Assembly: GCF_916618755.1 (NCBI RefSeq)
Contig: NZ_CAKAKB010000003.1
Span: 434,001 to 498,000, forward strand
Direction: 5' to 3'
Length of the DNA: 64,000 nucleotides
From: Actinotalea sp. Marseille-Q4924
GTDB lineage: Bacteria; Actinomycetota; Actinomycetes; Actinomycetales; Cellulomonadaceae
The notes under the pieces were generated by a model. It was given only the letters and a program-made list of their open reading frames with translations. It was not told where the DNA came from and made no database searches. The position numbers were made by a program, and so were the translations under genes. Numbering within the stretch: position 1 is the first letter of the stretch; every line of letters begins with the position of its first letter. This document shows, one piece after another, positions 37,437-42,411 of the stretch.

Positions 37437-42411
<4,975 letters not shown>

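Follow-up and report, generated by a model that had tools for sequence, protein, structure and literature searches.

A tandem array of three rrn operons

The window analysed here, a 64-kb stretch of DNA from Actinotalea sp. Marseille-Q4924, contains three complete rrn operons, which lie in tandem on the forward (+) strand, span positions 31698-48343 and each have the order 16S-23S-5S. Operon 1 (31698..36866) comprises a 16S gene at 31698-33219, a 23S gene at 33568-36674 and a 5S gene at 36750-36866; in operon 2 (37437..42604) these genes lie at 37437-38958, 39306-42412 and 42488-42604, and in operon 3 (43175..48343) at 43175-44696, 45045-48151 and 48227-48343. Operons 1 and 3 are identical across a 5446-nt stretch. 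The 570-nt spacer upstream of operon 2 (36867..37436, +) has a promoter-like site at 37138-37166 and is identical to the one preceding operon 3 (42605-43174). ARAGORN detected no tRNA genes in the 64-kb window, and hence there are none in any of the three ITS regions. No 16S gene other than the three copies of the array was found in the genome (3.64 Mb, 6 contigs).

The array is flanked at its 5' side by genes for argininosuccinate synthase, argininosuccinate lyase, a methylpurine-DNA glycosylase and a tyrosyl-tRNA synthetase-like protein (Pfam), and at its 3' side by a 602-aa ORF followed by genes for a HAD hydrolase, an FtsJ/S4 protein and an NAD kinase. Pfam matches are intact in eight of the ten ORFs flanking the array. 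The 602-aa ORF (48466-50274), which lies directly 3' of the array, has no Pfam match, and its alignment to congeners is partial, starting at the earliest at about residue 200.

Homologues of the array-flanking genes surround a single rrn operon in six congeners: the syntenic loci L033, L034, L035, L037, L038 and L039 have one operon each and contain no N, which shows that the array is not a general feature of the genus. (L036, the second operon of genome G012, is at a different location from the syntenic site.) The syntenic locus of another congener, L032 of genome G002 (G002:C1:724000-743999), has a different composition, being formed by, in this order, an rrn leader, a 97-nt run of N, a partial 5S gene, a spacer and a complete operon; the N run and the partial 5S gene occupy positions 11280-11468 of that locus. 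Judged by its sequence, it looks like a tandem rrn array that was left unresolved in the assembly, and because of this form the tandem arrangement is probably real in the lineage, with three as the putative copy number. We considered whether the array is an invention of the assembly, and judged this less likely, given the gapped tandem at the G002 locus. When the DNA of the inter-operon spacer was searched for in congeners, every match outside G000 was weak and at most 71 nt long. In G048, a genome of the same order, two 16S copies on the same strand (C1:1080130 and C1:1088245) are separated by about 8.1 kb, so that closely spaced rrn copies are also present in another member of the order.

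A separate observation concerns the argininosuccinate synthase gene (25820-27076), whose product is 93-94% identical to those of L034 and L035 but only about 31% identical to its positional counterpart in L032, L033, L037 and L038. Two argG types thus seem to alternate at the array locus across congeners.

All differences between the operons lie in operon 2

The three 16S genes are 1522 nt each; copies 1 and 3 have the same sequence, from which copy 2 departs at four positions only, namely 38462 (T>C, E. coli position 1049), 38469 (T>A, 1056), 38474 (G>C, 1061) and 38491 (T>A, 1078). The E. coli numbers were counted from the known landmarks C1054 and C1192, and this numbering agrees with the helix layout of RF00177. 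The initial annotation, made from the sequence of this stretch, had given exactly these four positions, and they are the sole differences among the three 16S copies. It had also noticed no companion differences in 16S, which is correct for these genes but does not extend to the operon: a whole-operon alignment reveals seven differences, which additionally include a 1-nt deletion in the ITS of operon 2 (39216; TT in operons 1 and 3, T in operon 2) and two substitutions in the second 23S copy, A>G at 39456, where the consensus is an unpaired A, and C>A at 40835, within a stretch that is inserted relative to RF02541. All seven lie on the forward strand and in operon 2, and are hence private to one of several near-identical repeat copies.

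The clustering of the four 16S differences, which had been called suspicious, is indeed far above chance. When the six substitutions were placed at random over the operon, 1 of 200,000 simulations had four of them within 30 nt; with four random changes in one 16S gene, all four came this close together in 9 of 200,000. The cluster is thus a single event or a single local failure. If the cluster is counted as one event, the probability that four independent events all hit the middle copy is 1/81, and that all hit any one copy is 3/81. The array is 16,924 nt long, and the unique sequence flanking it is 7,034-9,407 nt away from the seven differences on the left side and 7,517-9,890 nt away on the right side.

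The variant bases are not found in relatives

We searched relatives with an open pattern covering V6 to helix 34 (h34) in which the four sites were left free. It matched eight named loci (six of Actinotalea and two of Pseudactinotalea), all eight of which have the reference bases. The 16S has 99.8% identity over 1191 nt to Actinotalea ferrariae CF5-4 and 99.4% over 1520 nt to a second A. ferrariae, which places the organism within Actinotalea or very near it. In a sample of 19 genomes of the genus, the open pattern was present in 16, at 19 places, and the reference bases were found at 18 of these, the remaining one being copy 2. None of the 16 genus places outside the own genome has any of the four variant bases, and the variant was found in 1 of the 19 genomes, the own one. 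The open pattern was also present in 206 of 394 genomes of a class sample, and among the matches listed only copy 2 departs from the reference; the other 188 did not match the fixed bases of the pattern. A C at position 1061 in its context is present in only one of the 394 class genomes, the own one, and the motif 1056A/1061C had no matches among the 84,980 genomes of genome_contigs, a collection that may not include the own genome.

In an alignment of operons 1 and 3 with eight operons from seven congeners, all six rRNA substitutions of operon 2 fall at invariant columns. Taken alone, this placement is weak evidence because most columns are invariant (89 16S and 256 23S columns are variable, and 1433 of the 1522 16S columns are invariant), although changes that had been accepted should lie mainly in variable columns.

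Effect of the changes on helix 34

The four substitutions had been assigned to the conserved helix 34/35 region. Judged against the consensus of RF00177, only 38469 and 38474 are at paired positions of h34; 38462 is an unpaired bulge within this helix and 38491 lies in the hairpin 3' of it, where the change turns a GUGA loop into GAGA. Positions 38469 and 38474 are scored as non-standard pairs in copy 2, and the partner strand of h34 is unchanged, meaning that two pairs are broken without compensation. Conserved and structurally needed positions have thus been changed with nothing to offset them, as would be the case in a defective copy. The computed energy of the h34 strands alone rises from -18.4 to -11.8 kcal/mol with the bases of copy 2; for the single changes it is -18.4 (1049), -14.0 (1056) and -15.3 (1061) kcal/mol. 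It should be noted that when 260 nt of the region are folded, both versions have an energy of -85.8, although their structures differ, and the energetic case therefore depends on the native helix being formed.

Discussion

Taken together, these results lead us to favour, with some reservation, the reading in which the four 16S bases, together with the deletion in the ITS and both 23S changes, are residual consensus errors in the middle of the 16.9-kb tandem repeat. All bases of the affected stretch lie more than 7 kb from unique sequence, and few reads would be placed there with certainty. Once a repeat copy has become erroneous, correctly sequenced reads may align better to the error-free copies, and the error would then lose its read coverage and could not be removed by polishing. 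The Polypolish paper (PMC8812927) describes how an error in one repeat copy tends to survive short-read polishing, as the correct reads go to the clean copies. Our data have the features that such an error would show: the differences are private to one copy, and the affected stretch is far from unique anchors. Consensus errors would explain why only one copy, namely the middle one, is affected, why invariant positions are changed, and why the bases turned up neither in relatives nor in a donor.

Several observations argue against this reading. Raw long-read error is expected to be indel-rich, and six substitutions plus one deletion are not. Random error does not explain four substitutions within 30 nt. 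The flanking genes gave intact Pfam matches, and no general sign of a poor assembly was seen. In addition, for a 17-kb array to be assembled at all, the reads or the methods must have been capable of bridging repeats. How the assembly was sequenced and polished, and why the errors would cluster, are inferred.

The main rival, to which we give a minority share of our belief, holds that the DNA is real and that the cluster entered operon 2 in one recent mutational event, through error-prone or templated synthesis. With operons 1 and 3 intact, the cell would tolerate the weakened h34, and operon 2 would be a degenerating copy awaiting loss or gene conversion. The cluster demands a single event, the three further differences of operon 2 fit weak selection on this copy, and the tandem array seems real in the lineage. 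Moreover, the changes at 38469 and 38474 together create AAGGTTCT, whose reverse complement occurs about 77 nt upstream, and those at 38474 and 38491 create the hairpin arms TCTCG/CGAGA. Such matches also arise by chance. At random placements with the same spacing, an inverted match of at least 8 nt spanning two changes arose in 361 of 20,000 cases and hairpin arms of at least 5 in 1,768 of 20,000, and with the positions fixed, 9 of the 81 base combinations equal the inverted match and 18 equal the hairpin arms. A search of the whole 16S gene showed that 38462 and 38469 also create CGGTGCAAG, whose reverse complement occurs near position 81, and a match of this type of at least 8 over the whole 16S is reached by 33 of the 81 base combinations. 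Each hairpin arm has one of the two changes, and neither arm was copied from the other. Template switching or quasipalindrome correction was rejected for these reasons, as it covers only pairs of changes and no single template, inverted or direct, fits all four (the best inverted one has 13 mismatches in 30 nt). A real damaged copy also requires that operons 1 and 3 remain identical across a diverged middle copy.

The cluster could alternatively derive from a 16S donor outside the collections searched, either through a short gene-conversion tract or through a misassembled contaminant read. In favour of this, the cluster consists of substitutions only and has sharp borders, and the donor could lie in metagenomes or amplicon archives, outside the collections covered. 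We nevertheless regard this origin as improbable: the donor would need to have no other difference nearby, and none was found in genome_contigs for the 1056A/1061C motif, in the class sample, where the C at 1061 is confined to the own genome, or among plasmid-borne rRNA genes (508 records), no match of which reaches 95% identity over its length. Least probable of all is a functional, specialised 16S, in which ribosomes derived from operon 2 would have altered h34 behaviour in decoding, translocation or drug response. Helix 34 has been implicated in head movement during translocation and in spectinomycin binding (PMC3900107, PMC5882664), and since the spacer of operon 2 equals that of operon 3 and has a promoter-like site, operon 2 would be expected to be transcribed if it is real. 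In that case, up to about one third of the 30S subunits would have an h34 short of two pairs and could form a naturally maintained, functionally distinct set of ribosomes with altered decoding or translocation, an outcome to which we attach very little weight. Against specialisation, a compensatory change is absent while the h34 strands are destabilised as described above, and none of the variant bases is kept at the 16 matched places of the genus outside the own genome. The spectinomycin-resistance positions listed in the passages covered of PMC5882664 (1063, 1066, 1189, 1192 and 1193, plus 1183 outside h34) include none of the four, and a mutation at 1056 or 1061 was not found in two papers searched for these positions.

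The initial annotation had offered a specialised or defective 16S and an error of a hard repeat as possible interpretations. The error is the better supported of these and a defective 16S is still in play, whereas the specialised 16S received no support, having neither a compensatory change nor a recurrence that we could find elsewhere. If the bases are erroneous, they constitute a clean example of how a copy in a tandem rRNA array can feed a false and implausible 16S allele into reference databases, and call for caution in studies of within-genome 16S differences. If real, copy 2 would be a rare natural h34 mutant that is maintained next to wild-type copies.

Operon 2 can be compared with several known systems. 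It shares the affected helix with the spectinomycin-resistance mutations of h34 (PMC5882664). Like cases of intragenomic 16S heterogeneity (e.g. PMC7392658), it concerns copies within one genome that differ, but the changes of copy 2 are private to one copy and break pairs in a conserved core helix, instead of being located in variable regions. Template-switch and quasipalindrome mutations (PMC8794818, PMC7202029) resemble it in being clustered substitutions that partly create inverted repeats; unlike those of PMC8794818, the changes of copy 2 have no single template for all four, and those in the hairpin are on both arms. Polishing errors in one bacterial repeat copy (PMC8812927) are alike in that the differences are private and the other copies are clean, and operon 2 is set apart from them by its four substitutions clustered in 30 nt.
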